Shown here in pieces: positions 4,919-21,656 of a stretch of DNA of 37,787 nucleotides. The stretch's first letter is position 1, and every line of letters begins with the position of its first letter. The notes below the pieces were generated by a model, which was given only the letters and a program-made list of their open reading frames with translations, did no database searches and had not been told where the DNA came from. Both the position numbers and the translations under genes were made by a program. Source of the DNA: a virus; IMG/VR virus record IMGVR_UViG_3300031951_000520, positions 1 through 37,787 of that record; one strand, written 5' to 3'.

Positions 4919-5229
4919 TGCCGAGCATGATGGCAATAATGCGTTCTCGTGTTGCGAGGGCGGTGTTCAAGTCGAGAGCTTACAAACGCGCACTGCTCGA
5001 CGATAAGACTGGACAGCTATCGGAAAACGGTCGCATCATCATGGCGCACCTGAAGCGATTCAGCCGCTACGGCAAGCCGCCTGTCTACGCAGGCAGTGTT
5101 AGCAAGACAGACATGTTCGAGGTTGGCCGCATGGTCGGTCGCCAAGAAACGGTGCAGCTCATTGTCGAGGCGCTGCACTTGGACGAGAAGACCTTGACCA
5201 ATCTGCAAGAGGAATTCATCGATGAGTGA
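4918..5229 (+). CDS. Bbp19-like small head-operon protein
   Basis: The 103-residue protein starts at ATG 4918 (TGATG overlap). Basic N-terminal helices are followed by GRIIMAHLKRF and a later FEVGRMVGRQETVQLIVEAL segment. This pattern, about 30 residues of helix then (V/I)xxxLxxF then a GRR/GRQ-x-V-x-x-I helix, resembles the Bbp19 family of short proteins encoded just upstream of scaffold and capsid in BPP-1-like podoviruses. A structural or assembly role is likely, but its mechanism is not known to me. It overlaps the scaffold gene by 8 bp. Confidence 0.65.
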   Translation: MPSMMAIMRSRVARAVFKSRAYKRALLDDKTGQLSENGRIIMAHLKRFSRYGKPPVYAGSVSKTDMFEVGRMVGRQETVQLIVEALHLDEKTLTNLQEEFIDE

Positions 5230-6088
5230 CGACAACGGGTCCGTCTCGAACGGGCAACCCGGCGACAGCGCCGGAACGACGGGCGCTCCGTCATGGTTCG
5301 CAATGGAAGGTATGGCCCCCGATCAGGTCGGCCAGCTCGGGGAGATGGTCAAGGCCAAGGGGTGGAAGCATCCCGGTGAGGCTTTGCTGTCTTACCAGAA
5401 CCTCGAAAAGGTGTTCGGCGCTGACAAGGCTGGTCGAACGATTGTGGCTCCGAAGTCAGAGGACGACGTAGAGGGTTGGAATGCCATCTATAACCGCCTA
5501 GGACGGCCGGAGAGCGCAGACAAGTACGAGTTGCCAGTACCGGAAGGGCAGGATCGCTCGTTCGCTGAGGCATTCGCTCCGGTGATGTTCGAGGCAGGTC
5601 TGACCACGAAGCAGGCCAAGGCTCTGGCCGAGAAGTGGAATGAGATGAGCGGATCGCTGATGGAGCAGCAAGAGACCGCATTCCAGCAGCAGGTGGATGC
5701 CGAGTATTCCGCCTTGCAGAAGGAGTGGGGCGTTGCCGCGTCTCAGAACGAGGAGATTGCCCGTAGAGCGGCCATTAAGTTCTCGAAGGAAGCAGGGTTG
5801 GACGCGGATGCGTTCGACGCGATGGAGAGAGCAATTGGCACGGCGAAGTTAATCAAGCTGTTCCACTCGGTCGGATCTTCATTCCAAGAGGGAACCTTTG
5901 TCTCGAACGACGTTCTAAGCGGCGGCAGAATGACCCCCGCTCAGGCCGACGCCAAGATCAAGGCGAAGTTTACCGATCAGGAGTTCATGGCTCGTTACAT
6001 GAACCAAGATCCGAAGATCCGGCAAGGCGCTATCGACGAGATGATGGACCTGCAGCGAATGGCTAACCCGGAACTATTTACAGGCTAG
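5222..6088 (+). CDS. Capsid scaffolding protein
   Basis: A 288-residue acidic, Gln/Glu-rich protein directly upstream of the major capsid gene. The N-terminal 25 residues are flexible (Gly/Ser/Asn). Next comes a segment common to podovirus scaffolds (GRPESADKYELPVPEG), then long helices rich in Ala, Glu and Lys (about 110-200). A C-terminal region reads MTPAQADAKIKAKFTDQEF, often found in phage scaffold and capsid-assembly proteins. It guides procapsid assembly and is then released. Position, composition and motif agree well. No protease domain is seen. The stop at 6086-6088 begins a 263 bp non-coding block. Confidence 0.88.
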   Translation: MSDDNGSVSNGQPGDSAGTTGAPSWFAMEGMAPDQVGQLGEMVKAKGWKHPGEALLSYQNLEKVFGADKAGRTIVAPKSEDDVEGWNAIYNRLGRPESADKYELPVPEGQDRSFAEAFAPVMFEAGLTTKQAKALAEKWNEMSGSLMEQQETAFQQQVDAEYSALQKEWGVAASQNEEIARRAAIKFSKEAGLDADAFDAMERAIGTAKLIKLFHSVGSSFQEGTFVSNDVLSGGRMTPAQADAKIKAKFTDQEFMARYMNQDPKIRQGAIDEMMDLQRMANPELFTG

Positions 6089-6117
6089 TTGCAGGTGTGC
6101 TACGCGCACGTTAGTAT

Positions 6118-6161
6118 GATGACACCATAAAGTTCCTCTGTTGGAAATTCGTGGCGTTATC
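6118..6161 (+). other. Long imperfect RNA hairpin after the scaffold gene
   Basis: GATGACACC (6118-6126) can pair with GGCGTTATC (6153-6161) at 8 of 9 positions, one of them a wobble. An inner AAGTTCC/GGAAATT helix caps it around TCTGTT. It lies between the scaffold stop and the terminator at 6178. It could be an RNase III-type processing site or part of a larger folded leader. A smaller hairpin, GTGTGC-TAC-GCGCAC, lies just upstream near 6095-6109. Confidence 0.5.
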
Positions 6162-6177
6162 TCCTGTAAGTGAAATT

Positions 6178-6205
6178 GGGCCGGGAGAAATCTCGGCCCT
6201 TTTTT
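6178..6205 (+). terminator. Rho-independent terminator between scaffold and capsid genes
   Basis: GGGCCG (6178-6183) pairs with CGGCCC (6194-6199), with an inner AGA/TCT pair, followed directly by six T (6200-6205). This is a strong intrinsic terminator. Being upstream of the capsid gene, it would either reduce readthrough into it or end a transcript before a separate capsid transcript. Confidence 0.85.
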
Positions 6206-6207
6206 CA

Positions 6208-6310
6208 GGATGGGTTAAGCCGTAAGGCCCCCGCAGACTGCTGGATAGACAGCCGCCCGGTGAGAGCGTATCTCGCAAGGATTTTGGCCCCGGTAACGGA
6301 CAAGCCATCC
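6208..6310 (+). ncRNA. Candidate structured RNA element upstream of the capsid gene
   Basis: A closing helix GGATGG (6208-6213)/CCATCC (6305-6310) can enclose four hairpins: GCC-GUAA-GGC (6219-6228), GCUG-GAUAGA-CAGC (6240-6253), GUGAGA-GCGUA-UCUCGC (6260-6276, one wobble) and CCG-GUAA-CGG (6290-6299). Two of the loops are the GNRA tetraloop GUAA. No ORF of convincing composition crosses it. The fold was found by eye, with no energy calculation, so it is a candidate cis-regulatory element or processed ncRNA, not a named family. Confidence 0.5.
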
Positions 6311-6313
6311 GAT

Positions 6314-6345
6314 AAACATTCTTGGTTTTTAATGTTTTAGGAGGG
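6314..6345 (+). promoter_or_regulatory. AT-rich hairpin and strong RBS of the capsid gene
   Basis: AAACATT (6314-6320) can pair with AATGTTT (6331-6337) around a 10-base loop. The hairpin ends immediately before a perfect AGGAGGG (6339-6345), 6-7 bases from ATG 6352. Such a placement keeps the ribosome-binding site open and could protect the mRNA 5' end. It fits a gene needing very high translation. Confidence 0.6.
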
Positions 6346-6351
6346 CTAATC

Positions 6352-7239
6352 ATGGCCGACAATATTGCTAGTGCATATGCCGTACAATACGGCACAAACG
6401 TCAGCATTCTGCTCCAGCAGAAAGGCTCGAAGCTCCGTTCTACGGTGCAGATGGGCAGCTACAAGGGCAAAGCCTCTGAAGTCGTCACGCAGTACGGTGC
6501 TACCGCTGCTCGTGCGGTTTCGACCCGCTACACCCCGATTGTTCCAGTCAACACGCCGAACGCCCGTCGCTGGGTGTTCCCGGAAGACTACGATTGGGCT
6601 GACCTGATCGACAACTTCGACAAGCTCCGTCTCCTCGCTGACCCGCAGTCTGCTTACACGCAGAACGGTCTCTACGCGATGGGCCGTGCGATGGACGATG
6701 TCATCATTGCTGGTATGTTGAACGACAACAAGACCGGCGAGTCTGGTGGCACGACCACCAGCTTCGACACGACCAACCAGCGCGTCGCGGTGAACTACGC
6801 TGCCTCTGGCAACGTGGGCCTCACGGTGGACAAGCTGCGCGAAGCGCGTCGCATCCTGATGGAGAACGAGGTCGATCTCGACGCGGAGCCGGTGTACTGC
6901 GCCATCTCTGCCGAGCAGCACGACGATCTCTTGGGCCAGATGCAGGTTGTTTCGTCTGACTTCAACGGCGACACGCCGGTGTTGAAGGACGGCAAAATCA
7001 TGCAGTTCCTTGGCATCAACTTCATCCACAGTGAGCGGTTGCCGACCTCGTCGACCTACCGTCGCTGCCCGGTGTGGGTGCCTTCTGGCGTTCACCTCGG
7101 CATGTGGAATGACATCATGTCCGACATCACGCAACGTCGCGATCTCTCTTCGCTCCCGTATCAGATCTATCTGATGGGTACCTTCGGTGCTACCCGCACG
7201 GAAGAGAAGAAGGTTGTTGACATTCTCTGCGCGGAATAA
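6352..7239 (+). CDS. Major capsid protein
   Basis: With ATG 6352 (perfect AGGAGG upstream) the protein is 295 residues. It resembles the capsid proteins of BPP-1-like podoviruses: an N-terminal arm (SILLQQKGSKLRSTV), then RRWVFPEDYDWADLIDNFDKL, a central AYTQNGLYAMGRAMDDVIIA helix, and a C-terminal SDITQRRDLSSLPYQIYLMG. These proteins have the HK97 fold and build the icosahedral shell. Codon use is strongly G/C-ending, as expected for the most expressed gene, and flanking terminators isolate it. A 262-residue antisense frame over this gene is a codon-bias shadow. Upstream TTG extensions (6322) read through the ribosome-binding site and are rejected. Confidence 0.92.
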   Translation: MADNIASAYAVQYGTNVSILLQQKGSKLRSTVQMGSYKGKASEVVTQYGATAARAVSTRYTPIVPVNTPNARRWVFPEDYDWADLIDNFDKLRLLADPQSAYTQNGLYAMGRAMDDVIIAGMLNDNKTGESGGTTTSFDTTNQRVAVNYAASGNVGLTVDKLREARRILMENEVDLDAEPVYCAISAEQHDDLLGQMQVVSSDFNGDTPVLKDGKIMQFLGINFIHSERLPTSSTYRRCPVWVPSGVHLGMWNDIMSDITQRRDLSSLPYQIYLMGTFGATRTEEKKVVDILCAE

Positions 7240-7253
7240 GGGAGTAAACGAAA

Positions 7254-7757
7254 ATGGCAGTTGTAGCAGTTAAGTCAACCCTTATCACCAACGCAGACGC
7301 GACCCCGGTCGTTCTCAACAGCCCTCGTGTAGACGGTGGTTTTGAACACATCGAAGTCGCAACTGCGGCGATCACTTCTGGTGACAGCATTGATTCGACT
7401 TATCGTATGTTCCGCGTTCCTTCGAATGCGGTCATGACGGATCTTCGAATCTACTCGCCGGATATCGGCACCACGACGATCTCCGACATTGGCCTGTATC
7501 GCACGGCCAAGGACGGCGGCGCTGTGGTTGATGCTGACTTCTTTGCCTCGGCTCTGTCCCTCAAGGACGGTGCGCTGAACGGCACAGATGTTCTGCACGA
7601 GTCGGCTGTGTTCTCGATTGCGAACAGCGGCAAAGAGTTGTGGGACGCCCTCGGCCTCACCTCTGATCCGTCGGTGTTCTACGATGTGGCTTTCACATTG
7701 ACGGCGGCGGCTGACGCTACCGGCACCGTGAAGCTGATCGGTCGTTACACGGCGTAA
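7254..7757 (+). CDS. Putative capsid decoration or minor head protein
   Basis: A 167-residue protein 14 bp after the capsid gene and before a terminator, so probably co-expressed at high level. It is rich in Thr, Val, Ala and Asp with alternating hydrophobic residues, suggesting an all-beta fold. The middle contains MFRVPSNAVMTDLRIYSPDI and the end VKLIGRYTA. In BPP-1 the gene after the capsid gene encodes the cement protein, so position supports a decoration role. I do not recognise direct sequence identity to that family, and the role is inference. Confidence 0.6.
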   Translation: MAVVAVKSTLITNADATPVVLNSPRVDGGFEHIEVATAAITSGDSIDSTYRMFRVPSNAVMTDLRIYSPDIGTTTISDIGLYRTAKDGGAVVDADFFASALSLKDGALNGTDVLHESAVFSIANSGKELWDALGLTSDPSVFYDVAFTLTAAADATGTVKLIGRYTA

Positions 7758-7763
7758 TGAACT

Positions 7764-7797
7764 GGGGCGGGTCGGAAAACCGGCCTGCCCCTTTCTC
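7764..7797 (+). terminator. Strong terminator after the capsid pair
   Basis: GGGGCGGGTCGG (7764-7775) pairs with CCGGCCTGCCCC (7780-7791) over 12 bp with two wobbles and an AAAA loop, followed by TTTCTCTT. It matches the position of the terminator after gene 10 in T7 and would allow partial readthrough into tail genes. Confidence 0.88.
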
Positions 7798-12435: not shown

Positions 12436-14211
12436 ATGGCAAAGCTTGAGTTTTACAGACAGCAGGTCGTTCCCAATCTCACGGCTCCGAGCGGGGCAGG
12501 GATTGCTGAGGCTGGCCGTAGCCGCGGTCAGGCGATTCAAGCCGTCAAGCAGCTCACTAGCACTGCTGCAGACATGTTTGCAGAACTGGATGCGATCAAG
12601 GCTGAGGACGCATTCAACAAGATCCGTGAGCAGCAGACGACGTTGATGACCGATCCCGAGCAGGGGTTCATGTCCAAGAAGGCAGGCGATGCTGTGTCTG
12701 CTGACTTCATGCGCAAGTACATGGACGACTTCGATAGAACCATCGAAGAGACATACTCGGGACTTCAGAACCAGCGACAGCGCGATCTGTTCCGTCGACG
12801 CGCAGATGCTGCGAACACGCAGTACCGTTCTGCGCTGCGGAACCACGTTCTGAATGAGACTGAGTCTTACAACAAGCAAGTGTTTGAAGGCACGGTCAAG
12901 AATGAATCTGCTACTGCAGCGGCAAACTACAAGGACCTGCCATCCGTAGGGTTGTCTTTGGAGAATGCGCGAAACAGTGCGATTGCATACGCAAACCGCG
13001 CTGGCTTAAAGGGTGACGCTCAGATCGCGTTCATCAACGGATCAATGGCTGCTGTACATGATGCTGTGCTGTCATCTGCTATCGGCGACAACAACTTTCC
13101 ATACGTCAAGGATTACCTGAAGACGTTCGAGAAAGGTGGATCTCGCGAAGGAGAATTGCCTGCCGCTCGTGTTGCGCAAATCAAGCAACAGATTGAAACA
13201 AGCGATGTTCGCGATCAAAGCTTAAAGCTGTCGATTGATCTTGTAGGAAAGGGGCTTTCTACGAAAGAGCAACGTGCGCAAGTTAAAGACATGTACACGT
13301 CCGGCAAGATCAGCGCAGAAGTTTACGATCAGACGGTTATTCGCATAAACCAAGAAGAGGCTCGTGCTAAAGCGGCCGAGGCTGATTTCAATAACTCCAT
13401 GAGCGGCCAAGCTCAGGAGTGGATATTGACCAATCCCGGCAAGTCTGTTTTGGACATGCCGCCTCGCTTGTATAACTGGGCGAAGTCAAAGGGACAGCTC
13501 GACACGCTGAATCGGTTTGCTGACAACAACGGGCAGGTTCGCGGTAACAGCGCCGAGTTTACTCGGCTGTACGTTATGGGCGCGGATGATCCGACAGCAT
13601 TCATCAAGGAGTTTGACAGCCGAAGCAACGAACTCCAAACCGAGTTATCGAAGACTGAGTACAACTCTTTGCTGACTCGTCGAGGCTCAATCGGCAAGGC
13701 TGACTTGCAAGGACAGCAAGCTTCCAAGGTTGCGGCGTCGACCGTTAAATCATTGCGCAACAACTTGATTGCTGCTGGCTTGGACGTTACCCCGAAAGAA
13801 GGGACCCCGCAGGCGGAGCAGCTTGCGAATTTTGAGGCGCAGTTGATTCAGGCTATCGAGGTCAAGACTCAGGAGGCTGGCCGCGCATTGACGCTGAACG
13901 AGTCTCGCAAGATCGGGCTTGACCTATTGCGAGAAGGTCGACTTATTGATGCTGGCAGCTTCTGGGGTGACAAGGGCGTTCGTCGGTTTGAGGCGACCGA
14001 GGCTGACATTCAACGGTACGGATTCCGATATAATTACGAGGACATCCCGCCTGAAGATCAGAAGCGTCTGTATAGACTTATCCAGACTCGGCCGGATCTT
14101 CGAGAACAACTCGGCATTACATTGACGCCAAACAAGACCATTACCAGTGCTGACTTTGCGCGTGGCATTGAGGTCCTGTATTCAGCCGAGGTCGATGGAG
14201 TGAATTTCTGA
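12436..14211 (+). CDS. T7 gp15-like ejection protein
   Basis: A 591-residue, largely helical and polar protein with many Gln, Asp and Lys residues and no membrane segment. It begins AKLEFYRQQVVPNLTAPSGA, typical of internal virion proteins preceding the gp16-like giant. Phrases such as YADNNFPYVKDYL-like repeats of helix-turn-helix character are spread through residues 150-400. In T7, gp15 and gp16 form the periplasmic tunnel for DNA entry. Position and length (T7 gp15 is 747) support the role. The stop overlaps the next ATG as TGATG. Confidence 0.75.
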   Translation: MAKLEFYRQQVVPNLTAPSGAGIAEAGRSRGQAIQAVKQLTSTAADMFAELDAIKAEDAFNKIREQQTTLMTDPEQGFMSKKAGDAVSADFMRKYMDDFDRTIEETYSGLQNQRQRDLFRRRADAANTQYRSALRNHVLNETESYNKQVFEGTVKNESATAAANYKDLPSVGLSLENARNSAIAYANRAGLKGDAQIAFINGSMAAVHDAVLSSAIGDNNFPYVKDYLKTFEKGGSREGELPAARVAQIKQQIETSDVRDQSLKLSIDLVGKGLSTKEQRAQVKDMYTSGKISAEVYDQTVIRINQEEARAKAAEADFNNSMSGQAQEWILTNPGKSVLDMPPRLYNWAKSKGQLDTLNRFADNNGQVRGNSAEFTRLYVMGADDPTAFIKEFDSRSNELQTELSKTEYNSLLTRRGSIGKADLQGQQASKVAASTVKSLRNNLIAAGLDVTPKEGTPQAEQLANFEAQLIQAIEVKTQEAGRALTLNESRKIGLDLLREGRLIDAGSFWGDKGVRRFEATEADIQRYGFRYNYEDIPPEDQKRLYRLIQTRPDLREQLGITLTPNKTITSADFARGIEVLYSAEVDGVNF

Positions 14212-17200
14212 TGCCGACATTGCAGGAATGGTTGAGCAAGCAAAATGATCAGGCCGTTTCGGAAAAGCTGTTATCAGTCTCCGATGCGAATCCTGATCTA
14301 GCCGCGCAGTCTGTTAAGCAGGCTCGTACAAACAACATTCCTCCGGCGCTGACCCCGTTTGAACCTGATCCCGAGCTGGATCAGCAGGCTCGTTTGAATC
14401 GTACTGCCAGCACAGTGCAGTCGACAAAGACGCTTAAACAATGGCTGAACTCACAGCCCGACGTTGTCGCTGCCTCCGTGCAGGACGATGTTGAAAACAT
14501 GAGCTTGATTGAGAAGGCCGTCAGCATTCCAAGAGCAATTTTATCTGGTGTGCCAAGTATGGTCGGCGGTGGCATTTTTGGAACCGCGGCTCTTGCGTCA
14601 GGTTCGTTACGAACTATTGGCGACTACATCAACAAATCCGGCATTGCGCCTCTAGGCCCGACCGCAACGCTGTTCTCGACTGGCGGCGCAGCAGAGCAAT
14701 TCTTTGCAGAGCAGGCAAAAGCGCAGGAAGGTTTAGCTGAATTTGTTGCTGGTGAGCAAGCGATCAGCGGTCCGATCTCTGGCGGCATTTACAGCGGTTT
14801 TAAGTCTATTGGCCAGCAGTTGCCTGCACTGGCCGCAGGTCTTGCTACTCGCAACCCGACGTATGCATTGAACTTAATGGCAGCGTCGACGACTGGCGCT
14901 GAATACATTAAAGCTCGTGAGCAGTTGGATTATGCGCAGGCCGCTCCGTATGCGGTGCTGCAAGGCTTAATCGAGTACGCGACCGAAAGGCTTCCTGTCT
15001 TTGAACTGTTCAAGGATCTGAAGGTTGACGAGTCTTTCTTGACCATTCTCGGAAAGCAGATCCTGCTAGAGGTTCCCGGCGAACAAGCCGCAACCATCCT
15101 GCAAGACCTGAACGAGTGGGCAAACCTGAACCCTGAAAAGCCGTTCAAGGAGTACCTCGCCGAACGTCCCTCTGCCGCGGTCGAGACTTTGGTTGCAACC
15201 ATTGTCGGCGTCGGCGGAAACGTCGCCGTTACCAAAGGCATCAACTTACTGTTGGAGCGCGATACCTACTCGCAGCAGGCCACCGACACGGCAGACCTGT
15301 TGCGGGAACTCGACACGCTGGCCAAGGCGTCTGTCGTCCGTGAGCGGGACGTGGACACGTTCGAGGGATTCTTGCAGGCAGTCACACAGGATACCCCCGT
15401 AGAATCGCTTTATATCGATTCTCAGACGCTTATGGAGTCTGGCCTTGCCGAGGTATTGGCTGGGCAGTCGCCGACCGTAGCGGCCCAGCTTGAGCAGGCT
15501 AGCGCCGGGACGATGATCCGCATTCCGACCGCCGAGGTCATGGGCCGGTTCAATCAGGAGCTGTCGCCGCTGTTGCCGGAGATGCGCACTGACCCCAACG
15601 GCATGAGCCAGCGTGAGGCTGAGGAATATGTCAGCACTCGAAGCGAGGAGCTGCGCACTCAGGTCGAGACCGTGCTATCGCAGAACGAGGAGGAGTCTTC
15701 CGCTCAGGAGGCGCGTCTAGCCGTTCGAGATACGGTCGCTCAGGAGCTGATGGCTACGGGTCGCGTCACTCAGGATGTGGCCGACAACTATGCTCTGTTG
15801 ACCTCGACCTTCTATCACGTCATGGCCCGTCGCATGGGCATGAATGCCAGCGAGTTGTTCGGGCAAGAGCGACTGCGCATTGCTGGTGTTGGGCGTGGCG
15901 AGTTTGAGCAGGTTGAATTACCGGAAGGGACTTTGCCGGGTGCGCCAGTTGATATCCAAACTGCTGGCCGATTCCCATTTTTGCAAAACGAAGAAGGCGC
16001 AATCGTTGTCCGTGGCGATGCTGCTCAGATTCGCGAGTCACTTCCAAAAGGCATACTTGGTCGCAAGGTTCAGGGCGGTTTGTCTTTTGGCGTAATTGAT
16101 GCGCCGCGTGTTTTGTCTGCACTGCGTGGCGAAAAGCTGACCTATGGCCGAGCCGGTCAGGTTCTTGAAAAGCTTCCCGTAAAAGACGGCAAGTACATTG
16201 GTGCGCCAGAGAAGTACAACACACCTGAGACAATTGAGGATTTGCGCAAGAGACTTCTTGATCTTGCGCTTGAAGGTGAATACGGAAGATTTTGGTACGA
16301 GGAAAGCGGCAGGGCGATTATTGAGTATGTCGGCGGTGACTTAAAGGAAGCTCGAAAGCTTCTTGCGCTGATGTCGATTTATTCTCCGCAAGCAAAGGTT
16401 GATGCAAACTCAACCTTCGCTATTCGTGCGTGGGCGCAATACAAAGCTGGCCAACCGATTCAGGTCAAGACGGGGCCGCAAGACGCCAAGGCCAACGAGG
16501 CCATGCGCGACATTGACGCATTCTGGTCTGGCGAAAAAACCGGAAACTTCATTACCAATCTTCTGCGCGTAGTCGATCCGACATTGCCGCAAGGCGCAAC
16601 GATTGACATGTGGATGATGAGAGCTGCCGAGTACGACACGGATGCTCCTTCAAAAACGCAATATGCGTTTATGGAAAACGAAACCAACCGTATTGCTCGT
16701 GAGCTTGGTTGGGAGCCTCAGCAGGTTCAGGCTGCTATCTGGGTTGCAATGAAGGCCCGGATGGAAAACGCCGATGTTAAAAAGAAAACTGAAGACTCTT
16801 CTGAAAATAATGGCTGGATTCGTTTTGAACGAAACGAAAAGGGCGTCAAGCGCCGAGTTATTATCGATGAGAAAAAGCATCGCGATAACTGGCTAAAGTA
16901 TGCGAACGAACACGTTCCAAACAGGGATGATAAGTTTGCTGCCGGGTTCCATTTCGGCGATGGCATTGCTCGACATGTAGGGCAAGTTTCGTTTGAAGCC
17001 CGTCCCGGCAGAAGCACTGGCGTTTTACCGGGCATCCACGATGCGCCATACGAGCAGCAGCTTGAGTTCCAGCAAGCCATTGATCGAGTCTTCTACGACC
17101 CGATTAGCGGCGCTGATTTAATTGCAAGCTATCTCGGGTTGTTGACTGACAGCGACATCATCGCGCCGGGAGTCTGGCAGGGCGAAGTGTCGCCAAGCTC

Positions 17201-20200
17201 ACAACGCAATATGGTCATGGCCCCGGCGAAGGGGACTGCCGACCGAGTAGATCCAGCGCAAGCAAAACTCCTCAACATTTATGCGGCACTGAAAGGATTG
17301 CTTGCCCGTCAAGAGGGCGTCGGTTGGCATAAACCTTATTATGCAACCACAAAAAAGAATGCCAATGGATTAGACATTGACATTGGCAGGCCGTTGACCA
17401 CGCAAGAAACGGTCGATCTTAGCAATGCCATTGCAGAGTGGATGCTAAAAAACAACAAGGGTGAAGGATGGAATGATTCCTTCGCCTTGATTAGTAGCCC
17501 GAATGGGATCAGACTAGTTAACTTCGGTGTAATTGATAACGCCGAATTGCAAAGCGACATTTTGGCTGTTGCGGAAACTGTGCTGCCTGACGCAGATGCA
17601 CGGATGTTTTCGTCTGACGGCGATATGCCGAGCAACAACTGGAGAGAAAAACCTGATGGGCAAGATTACATTGAAAGGATTCGTGCCGAAGGACGATCCG
17701 ATGTTTTGGACTGGGCCGCAGATGTTCTCGCGCCCAGAGTACAGGCAGTCTTCGAAGACTTTAGCCAGCGATATGGCTGGGGAGATCCCGGCTCAATCAG
17801 CATCGCCCCAAAAGCAAAAGGCAAAGAGTTCTTCCAAGGCGAAGCCCAAGAAGTCCGAGGATCTTTCAGCCCCTCAGAGCTGACGATCCGCCTGACCAAG
17901 GCGCAGGATCTCTCGACGTTCCTGCACGAAAGCGGTCACTTCTACCTGCACATGCTCGTCAATCTGGCCTCGCGGCCGGATGCACCGGCAGATGTGCGCA
18001 AAGATGCCGAAACGATCCTGAAGTGGTTTGGCGTCAAGGCCACGCCAGAAATGAGCCAGTTCGACGTGTGGCTCAATATGTCCACCGACGAGCAGCGCCC
18101 GAGCCACGAGAAGTTTGCCCGTGGGTTCGAGGTGTATCTCGCCGACGGTAAGGCCCCCTCGACTGAGCTGCAGCCGATGTTTGATCGGTTCCGCTCGTGG
18201 CTGACTTCGGTTTATCGGTCCCTGATGGAACGAGCCAAAGCCACCCTCGGCAAGCAAGCCTCTTTCGGACAGGCCATGCAGGCCGAGCTGAACGACGAGG
18301 TCCGTGCTGTATTCGATCGATTACTAGCAACGCAGGAAGAGATCGAAGCTCGGGAAGCCGCCCAGTCTATGGACATGATGTTCAAGACTGAAGCCGAGGC
18401 CCAGAAGTTCGGCATCGACTGGAAAGCGTATCAGGCGCAAGGAGAGGCCGCTACGCAGCAGGCCATCAGTGACCTGACCGCGAAGTCGGTACAGGACATG
18501 AAGTGGCTGGAGAACGCTCGTAGTCGCTTATTGACGAAACTGCAGCGCGAGGAGAAAGAGACTCGCCGCAATGTGCGCTCGATGGTTCGGCCGGAGGTTA
18601 TGTCTCAGCCAATTTACCGGGCATGGGCATATCTGACTGGCCCCCTCACCGACGACCCGAACGCGGAACCGACAAGCCGTTTCGATCCCGAGTATGTCGA
18701 GCAGGTCACGGCCAGCAAGGAAGTGGTCGCCCAGCTTCGCAAACTGCGGATGGTGGCAACGGCTGCCGACATCAAGAAGGGCGTCAGCGGAGAACACCCG
18801 GACGTGGTCGCAGAGACCTTCGGATTCTCCAGCGGTTCGGAATTGATCCGCGCCATTCTGGCATCGCCGACACCGGATGAAGCGATCAGCGCCGAGACTG
18901 ATGCTCGAATGCTGCGCGACTTCTCTGACCTGTCTACGGCGGAAGGTCGCAACAATGCCGCCAATGCCGCGCTGGCAAACGAGGCCCGGACTCGCATGGT
19001 CGAGACGGAGCTTTCTGCACTTGAGCAGGCTATGGCTCCGACCGTAACCGTTGGTGGCCGACGGCAGCGAACCCTGCCGGGTGCTGCAAAAGCATTCGCT
19101 CGGTCCGTGATCAACCGCCTGAAAATTCGCGACGTGCGTGTCAGCCAGTACAGCGGAAGCGCGGCCCGTGCTGCGCGTAACGCCGAACGTGCCATGAAGC
19201 GCGGTCGATTGGCCGAGGCTGCACTTGAGAAGCGCAACCAGTTGGTCAACAACTACGCAACACGTTTTGCTGGCGAAGCTCTCGACAACGTGAAGAGCGG
19301 CCTTGCCTATCTGAAGAAGTTCACGAAGGAAGGCACTCGCAAAAACGTCGATCCAGAATATCTTGATCAGATTGATCGGATACTGGAGCGGTTCGACCTG
19401 CGCAAGAAATCACTGCGCGAGATCGACCGCAGATCCGCCCTTGCTCAGTTCATCGAAAACCAGAAAGAGCTTGGCATCGAGCCGGATCTTCCGGCGCACA
19501 TCGTCAACGAATCTCAGGCGGTCAACTACAAGAACCTGACCGTTGAGGAGTTTGCCGGTCTGGTCGACAGTATCCGTCAGATAGAACACTTCGGCCGACT
19601 GAAGCGCAAGCTGTTACTCGCCAAAGACAAGCGCGAGTTTGATGCGCTGATGAAGGAGATCCGCGAGTCTGTCATCGCGAACGACCGCGGCCGCGTCGCC
19701 GACAATCGTACTCGCACGGATCTCGGCAGCATCATGGCTCGTGCGTTCAAGTCGTTTACTGCTGCGCATCGCAAGATGGCTAGCATTGTGTACGAGATCG
19801 ATGGCTTCAAGGACGGCGGTCCACTGTGGGATGCGCTGGTTCGCACTGCCAACGAGCGCGGAAACTGGGAAGCAGAGAAGCAGGCCGAGCTGACAGCTCG
19901 ACTCGCACAACTGTTGAAGCTGCTGCCGAAAGAACGCGCATTCAGCAAAGGACAATTCTTCCCGCGTATTGGTACTAGTCTGAATCAGGAAGAGCGACTT
20001 GCTGTTGCTTTGAACTGGGGCAACGAAGGCAACCGTCAGCGATTGCTCGATGGCCGCGGCTGGACGACAGAAGGTGTGCAGCAAGTTCTCGACTCTCTTA
20101 CCAAAGAGCAGTGGGATTTTGTGCAGGGCGTGTGGGACACGTTCGAGAGCCTGCGTCCTGACATCGCTCAAGTCGAGCGCAACTTGATGGGCAAGGAGCC

Positions 20201-21656
20201 AGAGTGGATCGAGGCCACGCCGATACAAACCAAGTTCGGAACCTATCGCGGTGGTTACTATCCTGCTGTCTACGATCCGGGCGAGAGTCTGCGCACGGAG
20301 CAGTTGTCTGCTGAGGAAGAGGCCAAGCGCCAGCTCCGAGGTGCGCGTACTGCAGCAACGGTGCGCAGCAACTTCGTGAAGGGCCGCGCTGAAGAAGTCA
20401 AAGGCCGACCGCTTCTGTTGACGATGGATGCGACGTTCAACGGCCTGACCGACGTGGTGCATTACCTTGCCTACAAGGAATGGCTGGTCGATGCCAATCG
20501 AATCCTTCGTGCCGTCGACGGTACGATTCGTGAGCGTTACGGTGCGGAGTTGACCCGGCAGTTACGCACTGCGGTCGAGGCGATTGCTGCGGGTGAGGCG
20601 ACCAATCCTCACGCGCTCGACAAACCGTTGCGTCACATCCGTATCGGCTCGATGGTTGCAGGTCTTGGATTCAATATCGTCAACGCTGTCATGCAGCCGC
20701 TCGGTTTGACGCAGTCGATTGTGCGTATCGGGCCGAAGTACATCGCACAAGGCGTGGCAGAGTTTGCGAAGAATCCGGTCAAGCTCGGCACGACTGTGCT
20801 TGAGAAGTCGAGCTTCATGCGAAATCGCAAACGCACCCAGAACCGTGAGCTGAACGACTTGCGTAATAGTTTGCGCGGCAAGACTGAGTCGCGTCAGTTT
20901 ATCGATGGCGCAATGTTCCTGCCGATGACCGCAATTCAGATGACGGTCGACATCCCGACGTGGTGGGGCGCTTACCAGAAAGCGCAGACCGAAGGGTTTG
21001 ATGAAGACACGTCTGTGCAAATTGCGGATCAGGCTGTGCTGGCATCGCAAGGCGGTGGTCAGATGAAGGACCTTGCTGCAATCCAACGCGGTTCCGAGTT
21101 CGTGAAAATCTTCACGGTGTTCTACGGATACTTCAACACGGCGTACAACCTAGGCGTCGAACGTATTCGCGGAACTAATCCACGAAGTCCTGCGCAGGTT
21201 GCGCGTCTTGCCACTGACTTGCTGTTGATCTACTCGGTACCTGCTGTGCTGGGCATGCTGATCAAAGAAGCATTCAAGATCGGCGACGAAGACGACGACG
21301 AGGAGATTGCGCAGAAGTTGGCTGCGGAACAAGTGTCGTTCCTGTTCGGCACAATGGTTGGAGTTCGCGAAGCTGCCGGTGCTGCACAGATCATGTTCGG
21401 TCTGTCGACCTCTGGCGGTCTCGGATACAGCGGCCCTGCTGGGTTGCGGTTCTTCAACGAACTGAACAAGTTCAGCCAACAGGCAAACCAAGGTGAGCTT
21501 GACCGCGCATTCGTTCGCGCCGGTGTCAACGTGGCAGGTATCGCTCTGCACCTGCCGTCTGCTCAGATCAATAGAACGATTGATGGGGTGATTGCCATGA
21601 GCGAAGGCCGCACCCAGAACCCGGTCGCCCTCGTGGGCGGCGCACCACCCCAGTAA
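14211..21656 (+). CDS. Giant ejection protein (T7 gp16-like position) with HExxH metallopeptidase motif
   Basis: 2481 residues, nearly twice T7 gp16 (1318). The short motif TL-x2-WL-x2-Q occurs at 3-11 and again at 74-82, before a hydrophobic stretch (103-135). Residues about 556-1150 have lower GC and resemble DUF7178-like polyvalent-protein modules (ALMSIYSPQAKVDANS, TIDMWMMRA). HESGH at 1239-1243 with a downstream HEKFARGFE (Glu1307) fits a zinc metallopeptidase of the kind found in phage polyvalent proteins. Long helices with possible coils follow, then hydrophobic segments near 2144 and 2337. No transglycosylase domain is seen at the N-terminus, where T7 gp16 has one. It is probably packed in the head and injected with the DNA. 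Domain calls are from motifs by eye. Confidence 0.82.
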   Translation: MPTLQEWLSKQNDQAVSEKLLSVSDANPDLAAQSVKQARTNNIPPALTPFEPDPELDQQARLNRTASTVQSTKTLKQWLNSQPDVVAASVQDDVENMSLIEKAVSIPRAILSGVPSMVGGGIFGTAALASGSLRTIGDYINKSGIAPLGPTATLFSTGGAAEQFFAEQAKAQEGLAEFVAGEQAISGPISGGIYSGFKSIGQQLPALAAGLATRNPTYALNLMAASTTGAEYIKAREQLDYAQAAPYAVLQGLIEYATERLPVFELFKDLKVDESFLTILGKQILLEVPGEQAATILQDLNEWANLNPEKPFKEYLAERPSAAVETLVATIVGVGGNVAVTKGINLLLERDTYSQQATDTADLLRELDTLAKASVVRERDVDTFEGFLQAVTQDTPVESLYIDSQTLMESGLAEVLAGQSPTVAAQLEQASAGTMIRIPTAEVMGRFNQELSPLLPEMRTDPNGMSQREAEEYVSTRSEELRTQVETVLSQNEEESSAQEARLAVRDTVAQELMATGRVTQDVADNYALLTSTFYHVMARRMGMNASELFGQERLRIAGVGRGEFEQVELPEGTLPGAPVDIQTAGRFPFLQNEEGAIVVRGDAAQIRESLPKGILGRKVQGGLSFGVIDAPRVLSALRGEKLTYGRAGQVLEKLPVKDGKYIGAPEKYNTPETIEDLRKRLLDLALEGEYGRFWYEESGRAIIEYVGGDLKEARKLLALMSIYSPQAKVDANSTFAIRAWAQYKAGQPIQVKTGPQDAKANEAMRDIDAFWSGEKTGNFITNLLRVVDPTLPQGATIDMWMMRAAEYDTDAPSKTQYAFMENETNRIARELGWEPQQVQAAIWVAMKARMENADVKKKTEDSSENNGWIRFERNEKGVKRRVIIDEKKHRDNWLKYANEHVPNRDDKFAAGFHFGDGIARHVGQVSFEARPGRSTGVLPGIHDAPYEQQLEFQQAIDRVFYDPISGADLIASYLGLLTDSDIIAPGVWQGEVSPSSQRNMVMAPAKGTADRVDPAQAKLLNIYAALKGLLARQEGVGWHKPYYATTKKNANGLDIDIGRPLTTQETVDLSNAIAEWMLKNNKGEGWNDSFALISSPNGIRLVNFGVIDNAELQSDILAVAETVLPDADARMFSSDGDMPSNNWREKPDGQDYIERIRAEGRSDVLDWAADVLAPRVQAVFEDFSQRYGWGDPGSISIAPKAKGKEFFQGEAQEVRGSFSPSELTIRLTKAQDLSTFLHESGHFYLHMLVNLASRPDAPADVRKDAETILKWFGVKATPEMSQFDVWLNMSTDEQRPSHEKFARGFEVYLADGKAPSTELQPMFDRFRSWLTSVYRSLMERAKATLGKQASFGQAMQAELNDEVRAVFDRLLATQEEIEAREAAQSMDMMFKTEAEAQKFGIDWKAYQAQGEAATQQAISDLTAKSVQDMKWLENARSRLLTKLQREEKETRRNVRSMVRPEVMSQPIYRAWAYLTGPLTDDPNAEPTSRFDPEYVEQVTASKEVVAQLRKLRMVATAADIKKGVSGEHPDVVAETFGFSSGSELIRAILASPTPDEAISAETDARMLRDFSDLSTAEGRNNAANAALANEARTRMVETELSALEQAMAPTVTVGGRRQRTLPGAAKAFARSVINRLKIRDVRVSQYSGSAARAARNAERAMKRGRLAEAALEKRNQLVNNYATRFAGEALDNVKSGLAYLKKFTKEGTRKNVDPEYLDQIDRILERFDLRKKSLREIDRRSALAQFIENQKELGIEPDLPAHIVNESQAVNYKNLTVEEFAGLVDSIRQIEHFGRLKRKLLLAKDKREFDALMKEIRESVIANDRGRVADNRTRTDLGSIMARAFKSFTAAHRKMASIVYEIDGFKDGGPLWDALVRTANERGNWEAEKQAELTARLAQLLKLLPKERAFSKGQFFPRIGTSLNQEERLAVALNWGNEGNRQRLLDGRGWTTEGVQQVLDSLTKEQWDFVQGVWDTFESLRPDIAQVERNLMGKEPEWIEATPIQTKFGTYRGGYYPAVYDPGESLRTEQLSAEEEAKRQLRGARTAATVRSNFVKGRAEEVKGRPLLLTMDATFNGLTDVVHYLAYKEWLVDANRILRAVDGTIRERYGAELTRQLRTAVEAIAAGEATNPHALDKPLRHIRIGSMVAGLGFNIVNAVMQPLGLTQSIVRIGPKYIAQGVAEFAKNPVKLGTTVLEKSSFMRNRKRTQNRELNDLRNSLRGKTESRQFIDGAMFLPMTAIQMTVDIPTWWGAYQKAQTEGFDEDTSVQIADQAVLASQGGGQMKDLAAIQRGSEFVKIFTVFYGYFNTAYNLGVERIRGTNPRSPAQVARLATDLLLIYSVPAVLGMLIKEAFKIGDEDDDEEIAQKLAAEQVSFLFGTMVGVREAAGAAQIMFGLSTSGGLGYSGPAGLRFFNELNKFSQQANQGELDRAFVRAGVNVAGIALHLPSAQINRTIDGVIAMSEGRTQNPVALVGGAPPQ

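Follow-up and report, generated by a model that had tools for sequence, protein, structure and literature searches.

In translational riboswitches and ribosomal-protein leaders, a conserved multi-hairpin domain in the 5' leader of a message shares one strand with a hairpin that covers the Shine-Dalgarno (SD) sequence. Three phage RNAs also invite comparison: the MS2/PP7 coat-protein operator, formed in single-stranded RNA phages by one bulged hairpin that spans the replicase start; the phi29 pRNA, a separate packaging RNA of about 100 nt linked to head genes; and HK022 put, a leader RNA whose hairpins stand close to the 5' end and which acts upstream of terminators in early operons. To our knowledge, it has not been established for tailed phages that a dedicated RNA element controls translation of the major capsid gene. 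HTVC010P-like phages count among the most abundant of all described viruses, and we know of no account of how such phages, which have no obvious late-gene activator, time the production of their capsid protein.

The RNA described here lies in the leader of a capsid gene and resembles the riboswitches and ribosomal-protein leaders in its multi-hairpin domain and in a strand predicted to be shared with an SD-covering hairpin. It differs from them in carrying one internal loop twice over, with the strand order inverted between the copies, in standing before a phage capsid gene, in having no known ligand or binder, and in matching no known class by sequence or structure. It appears to work like an SD-sequestering leader and belongs to none of the Rfam classes tested. 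Like the MS2/PP7 operator it is a structured RNA tied to a coat gene and might be read by a phage protein, but it consists of four hairpins and precedes the capsid gene of a podovirus with a dsDNA genome. It shares with the phi29 pRNA its length and its link to head genes, but it lies within the capsid mRNA, is complementary to the SD and has no Rfam match. With HK022 put it shares the leader position and the hairpins close to the 5' end, but it shows no sign of action upstream of early-operon terminators.

The window, which is the whole stretch analysed (a virus record of 37.8 kb), has a late region of podovirus type. It encodes a portal (668-2335), a capsid-assembly/protease-like protein (5222-6088) with a promoter-like site at its stop codon, tail tubular proteins, and a major capsid protein of 295 aa (phrog_3437) on the plus strand at 6352-7239, identified by PHROG (E-value 1e-78) and by tblastn to the HTVC010P capsid. 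The SD of the capsid gene, GGAGG, is at 6340-6344 on the same strand. A DNA similarity search of the window against phage records gave no match, so a protein search was needed; the nearest cultured capsid relatives are HTVC010P-type Pelagibacter phages, at about 40-43% identity. A giant polyvalent protein of the virion-associated kind, 2481 aa long and containing LPD22 and DUF7178 domains, is encoded in the window at 14211-21656.

By sequence comparison, the structured RNA at 6211-6310 is real, and the supported fold is four hairpins in a row on the plus strand, P1-P2-P3-P4, with no closing helix. P1 (6211-6233), supported by covariation and the covariance-model match, has an internal loop of UUAA (6215-6218) opposite C (6229) and a GUAA hairpin loop (6222-6225). 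P2 (6238-6255) follows (U)GAC and has the loop GAUAGA, which is GAAAGA in the family; 98.8% of its helix cells are paired, with compensatory changes in 4 of 4 pairs. P3 (6260-6276) covaries in 6 of 6 pairs and is followed by CAAG. P4 (6279-6310), also supported by covariation, is built of a GGAU/AUCC base, then GGC/GCC, an internal loop of C (6289) opposite ACAA (6300-6303), and CCG-GUAA-CGG with the GUAA loop at 6293-6296; its 3' strand is complementary to the SD. The element reaches beyond 6208-6310, in the 5' direction to a stem P0 (6161-6210) and in the 3' direction to P5 and the SD (up to 6347).

IMG/VR was scanned with the capsid protein, giving 80 loci; the same strip was present in every capsid locus that had sequence upstream of the capsid gene, and 38 distinct leaders from the scan were aligned. 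Covariation, the absence of which would have refuted the RNA according to an earlier note, is strong. In a MAFFT alignment of 19 close relatives, 97.1% of the cells of the P1-P4 fold were paired (0 of 500 shuffles as high), and among 84 diverse distinct sequences the figure was 92.4%, with compensatory changes in 26 of 28 pairs and a covariation score of 0.672 against 0.164 ± 0.008 when shuffled (again 0 of 500 as high). Sliding the partners in this alignment gave scores of at most 0.11. The 84-sequence alignment was fitted to the structure and so leans towards the fold, but both the strength of the signal and its recurrence in the MAFFT alignment make an artefact unlikely.

The five-helix fold that the earlier note had paired by hand survives in part. 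A real structure is present, its two GUAA hairpins are those of P1 and P4, and it does lie in a non-coding strip with several hairpins, between a hairpin with T6 (6178-6205) and the capsid ribosome-binding site (6340). The proposed closing helix, GGATGG/CCATCC, was wrong: it pairs in 70.2% of cells against 69.0% when shuffled in the 19 close relatives (111/500), and its 3' strand, CCAUCC, belongs to the base of P4, where it pairs with 6279-6282. P2 was also drawn differently. The GNRA loops are not supported as the key feature, as hairpin-loop sequences vary in the family (UUUG, CUUCG, UAUU and others besides GNRA), whereas the internal loop beneath them stays constant; the conserved signature is the twin RYAA/C internal loop together with UGAC and the (G)GAAAG(A) loop of P2. 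RNAfold, which had been suggested as a check, gave for 6208-6310 alone a z of -1.24, barely better than shuffled sequence, and its minimum free energy structure misplaces P2, while that of the full leader favours the SD-sequestering state. The case for the RNA is therefore wholly comparative, and single-sequence folding would have missed it. In pelagiphages (L161 at 2363-2469, L166 and L266-L273), a small ORF that begins upstream ends inside the RNA: its last part coincides with P1 and some of P2, and its stop codon falls in the P2 loop (GGAAUAGAC), so that its translation could disturb the fold.

The same 4x1 internal loop, RYAA/C, recurs in P1 and P4 with its two strands exchanged; in the window it reads UUAA/C and ACAA/C, respectively. 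Loop nucleotides 3-4 are identical between the two hairpins in 45 of 49 non-redundant RNAs, where 26.4 would be expected and the maximum reached in 2000 permutations was 34. Several lineages have their own pairs, such as ACCC/ACCC (L231), AUCC/AUCC (L223), ACUA/ACUA (L227) and ACAC/ACAC. Because the loops change together between lineages, both appear to be under one constraint, most simply a single partner. An exchange of A-C for a G-U wobble between loop nucleotide 4 and the opposite base, suggested by GUAG/U variants, is not a general rule, the counts in A7 being A/C 126, C/C 28, A/U 7 and G/U 1.

The RNA forms a family that is not in Rfam 15 and is defined here by two covariance models, R1 and R2. 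No Rfam 15 model matched the window or five diverse relatives above the gathering threshold, and in E-value mode only terminator-hairpin or chance matches appeared; sub-threshold matches of the sroB/SorY type were merely to the terminator-shaped hairpin. A literature search, incomplete in its coverage, found no paper on this RNA. R1, built from 20 diverse leaders that did not include the window, was applied to 95 loci and in about 60 of these, many of them non-seed, recovered the RNA 30-45 nt 5' of the start of the capsid gene, with E-values down to 1e-24, and found nothing above 15 bits outside a capsid leader. The window scored 72.7 bits (E 9e-16) with R1 and 88.2 bits (E 1.1e-16) with R2, the source alignment of which (A3) included the window as a row. 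It has the characters that mark the family, namely the P1-P4 fold with compensatory changes, the matched internal loops and a position directly 5' of the capsid gene.

The family spans HTVC010P-type podoviruses, cultured pelagiphages and prophages. Matches fall exactly at the capsid leader in HTVC024P, HTVC010P, HTVC034P, HTVC035P, Lederberg and Skadi-4; the E-values for the cultured pelagiphages are 2e-4 to 0.05, in a small search and with scores lowered by low GC, and their P1 reads GUAAG[ACAA]UUC-loop-GAA[C]CUUAC. Prophage matches were found in Pandoraea captiosa, Burkholderia peredens, Cupriavidus necator and Nitrosovibrio sp. Nv4 (E 1e-8 to 1e-10). By eye, the twin loops, often as GUAG/U, can be recognised in Vibrio phages VP5, K300 and 1.182.O, in Alteromonas phage ZP6, in MEP301 and in a Methanotrichaceae MAG locus. 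A search for the module in 50 more distant or low-scoring leaders found it in 31, against 9.2 expected from mononucleotide shuffles, which is weaker evidence than a covariance-model match. Among capsid relatives in E. coli (APEC), Acinetobacter and Alcaligenes phages and in Piluca, the gap before the capsid gene is only 12-14 nt, too short to hold an intergenic leader of this kind, which counts against the switch proposed below.

Two scans of viral contigs by pattern, made independently of the capsid, returned only capsid leaders among the sequences that matched the model, and ten pattern matches without a capsid gene failed to match it. Whole genomes gave one good match per prophage, and 299 genomes of one family gave five, all before the capsid gene; no example in a non-capsid context was found in any of these searches. 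No other capsid family is accompanied by the RNA, which follows this one to capsid identities as low as about 25-32% (VP5 and ZP6, by eye). The idea that this is a regulatory RNA of no named family is thus borne out by the Rfam result, the covariation and the exclusive tie to the capsid leader. Five contigs of the capsid family (L311, L327, L331, L337 and L343) have been assigned to MAGs of archaea (Euryarchaeota, Woesearchaeota, Methanotrichaceae) and Chloroflexi, but they probably come from phages and were placed with the wrong host. The locus tags of Pelagibacter phages Baldr and Hodr (L163, OQ414636, and L275, OQ414635) look swapped, the Baldr record carrying EXVC031PHodr tags and the reverse.

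In 49 non-redundant leaders, the loop-bearing 3' strand of P4 shows complementarity to the region of the SD and start codon in the same phage. The mean duplex energy is -9.90, compared to -8.25 ± 0.27 with SD regions permuted (0 of 2000 as good). The control strands P1-3', P4-5' and P3 showed no own-SD effect in this test, which argues against base composition as the cause; the loop strand of P1 showed a smaller one (-7.26 vs -6.34). Examples of complementary pairs are AUAAGUCUUUC/GGAGGACUUAU (L241), AUAAGCCUC/GAGGCUUAU (L251) and AACCUCUU/AAGAGGUU (L186), an 8-nt complementarity is kept in L221 at 2364-2501 (GACAAGGC/GCCUUGUC), and the independent distant lineage L343, with GUAG/U loops, has an 11-bp match (GGUAGUUUUCC/GGAGAACUACC). 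The L221 capsid gene apparently starts with UUG where relatives use GUG, and its P4 loop has A where they have C.

The predicted folds consequently alternate between one with P4 formed and one with the SD sequestered. In the latter, predicted for the window and the 49 leaders, a hairpin P5-long (6303-6347, plus strand) pairs the SD with the 3' strand of P4: 6303-6306 with 6344-6347, 6308-6310 with 6340-6342 and 6314-6320 with 6331-6337, the window's own SD pairing being short (4+3 bp around a mismatch). When whole leaders were folded, the SD paired with P4-3' at 0.78 against 0.62 ± 0.02 in chimeras, and was unpaired at 0.14 in own leaders against 0.35-0.38 for other genes of the window. Forcing P4 carried a median cost of 7.5 kcal/mol, so by the energy model the off state lies below the on state, and the latter would need help or folding kinetics. 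Column-wise covariation of the SD pairing in a fixed register was not significant (p 0.24), nor was the permutation test for the GTG-start group alone (p 0.11); the proposed sequestration therefore draws on the energies and a longest-helix test (p 0.001).

Comparison of sequences thus supports the fold, the matched loops, the capsid-only placement, a promoter upstream in many lineages, and the complementarity of P4-3' to the SD. From these and the predicted folds, it is rather probable that the strip is a structured 5' leader of the capsid mRNA that acts as a translational switch for capsid synthesis, and hence that this folded RNA, common to many bacterial viruses, controls when the shell protein is made. 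P4 and P5-long would exclude each other. In one state P1-P4 would be folded, probably kept so by a factor that recognises both copies of the loop, and the SD would be free and capsid would be made, while in the absence of the factor the 3' strand of P4 would cover the SD and translation would be off. A transcript from a host-type promoter could thus be kept waiting until the time, or the level, is right for making capsid, and the candidate triggers are a head protein (the capsid or another), a protein of the host, a small ligand, or simply the kinetics of folding. A possible, though rather unlikely, alternative is autogenous feedback: the twin loops would together be bound by the capsid protein or by a head-assembly protein, which would in this way repress or tune translation of its own message, comparably to the coat operator of RNA phages or the leaders of ribosomal-protein genes. 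The restriction of the RNA to this capsid family fits such an arrangement, as do identical loops that evolve together, as two sites for one partner would; but the conserved fold frees the SD, so that a binder would be expected to activate and not repress, and the capsid, a putative RNA binder, is indistinguishable here from any other.

Upstream, a sigma70-like promoter, TTGCAG-17-TAGTAT, lies at 6088-6116 on the plus strand, at the stop codon of the protease/capsid-assembly gene. It is the top-scoring promoter site of the strip, but with p 0.12 alone it falls under the cut-off of the stricter scan. The pattern TTGCNN-17/18-TAnnAT is kept throughout the window clade, VP5, K300 and ZP6 have near-consensus sigma70 promoters in the corresponding position, and 39% of 67 leaders have an upstream TTGNNN-17-TANNNT site at p ≤ 0.05 against mononucleotide shuffles. 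In many lineages the RNA starts about 0-15 nt past the end of the -10 box; in a large clade the distance from the box to P1 is 8-15 nt, which would make the RNA the 5' end of the transcript there. This position, and the expected abundance of capsid mRNA, would also suit a stable 5' structure that shields the message from decay, with loop conservation secondary. Such a role is improbable, as any hairpin would do, and the covariation of the twin loops and the complementarity to the own SD would be left unexplained.

In the window clade, the long stem P0 (6161-6210, plus strand) stands between the promoter and P1. It consists of a terminator-like hairpin (6178-6199; with its T6, 6178-6205) at the tip of an enclosing helix, UCCUG (6163-6167)/CAGGA (6206-6210), which changes on both sides between lineages (UCCUA/UAGGA, CCUCUG/CAGAGG, UCUCCUGA/UUAGGAGA; own vs permuted duplex test, p 0.0026). 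The RNA on both sides of the T-run would thus be transcribed together, and the apparent terminator is, on this comparison, probably a leader stem. A plain terminator of the upstream operon is disfavoured, since a promoter-like site precedes it and a covarying helix encloses it, although dual use as terminator and leader stem may occur. A put-like action in cis on RNA polymerase, giving antitermination of the late operon, could be imagined for an RNA at the 5' end of a transcript behind a host-type promoter, with terminator-like hairpins at 6178 and 7764. It is very improbable: the RNA always stands before the capsid and never before other first genes, the window's terminator-like hairpin lies upstream of it, inside the covarying helix, and the SD complementarity is left unexplained. 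A self-cleaving ribozyme, or a processed free RNA for head assembly or packaging as in pRNA, both raised in some form by the earlier note, would account for the conserved unpaired nucleotides (UGAC, GAAAG, AA) and the tie to a head gene, but hardly deserves credence, as no Rfam ribozyme or pRNA model matches, there is no separate promoter or terminator except the upstream P0, and complementarity to the downstream SD points to action in cis.

A more far-reaching form of the translational switch may be suggested tentatively, as a reading that we find plausible while doubting it somewhat more than we believe it. The RNA would belong to an undescribed switch class, with the twin loops as a receptor for how far infection has gone, sensed through capsid protein, a different phage factor or a metabolite, and with capsid translation toggled by handing one strand between P4 and the SD; as part of the same tentative reading, the class would have been kept from pelagiphages to Vibrio and Alteromonas podoviruses and betaproteobacterial prophages. 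That the RNA stands only before the capsid gene over such divergence makes capsid timing directly testable with simple reporters, and the twin loop, by mutation of one or both copies, offers a handle for finding the partner. Isolates with prophages that bear the RNA are Pandoraea captiosa LMG 31118, Cupriavidus necator SHC 2-3 and Nitrosovibrio sp. Nv4.

Two further features flank the element. Between the promoter and P0, the window phage and L022 alone have an extra insert (window 6118-6160), which is predicted to form a hairpin of its own (UGAUGACACC...GGCGUUAUC). Downstream, a second strong terminator-like hairpin at 7764-7791, with 12 pairs (GGGGCGGGTCGG...) followed by TTTCTCTTAG, lies 3' of the gene at 7254-7757; given this position, promoter, P0, RNA, capsid gene, next gene and terminator may form one transcription unit.
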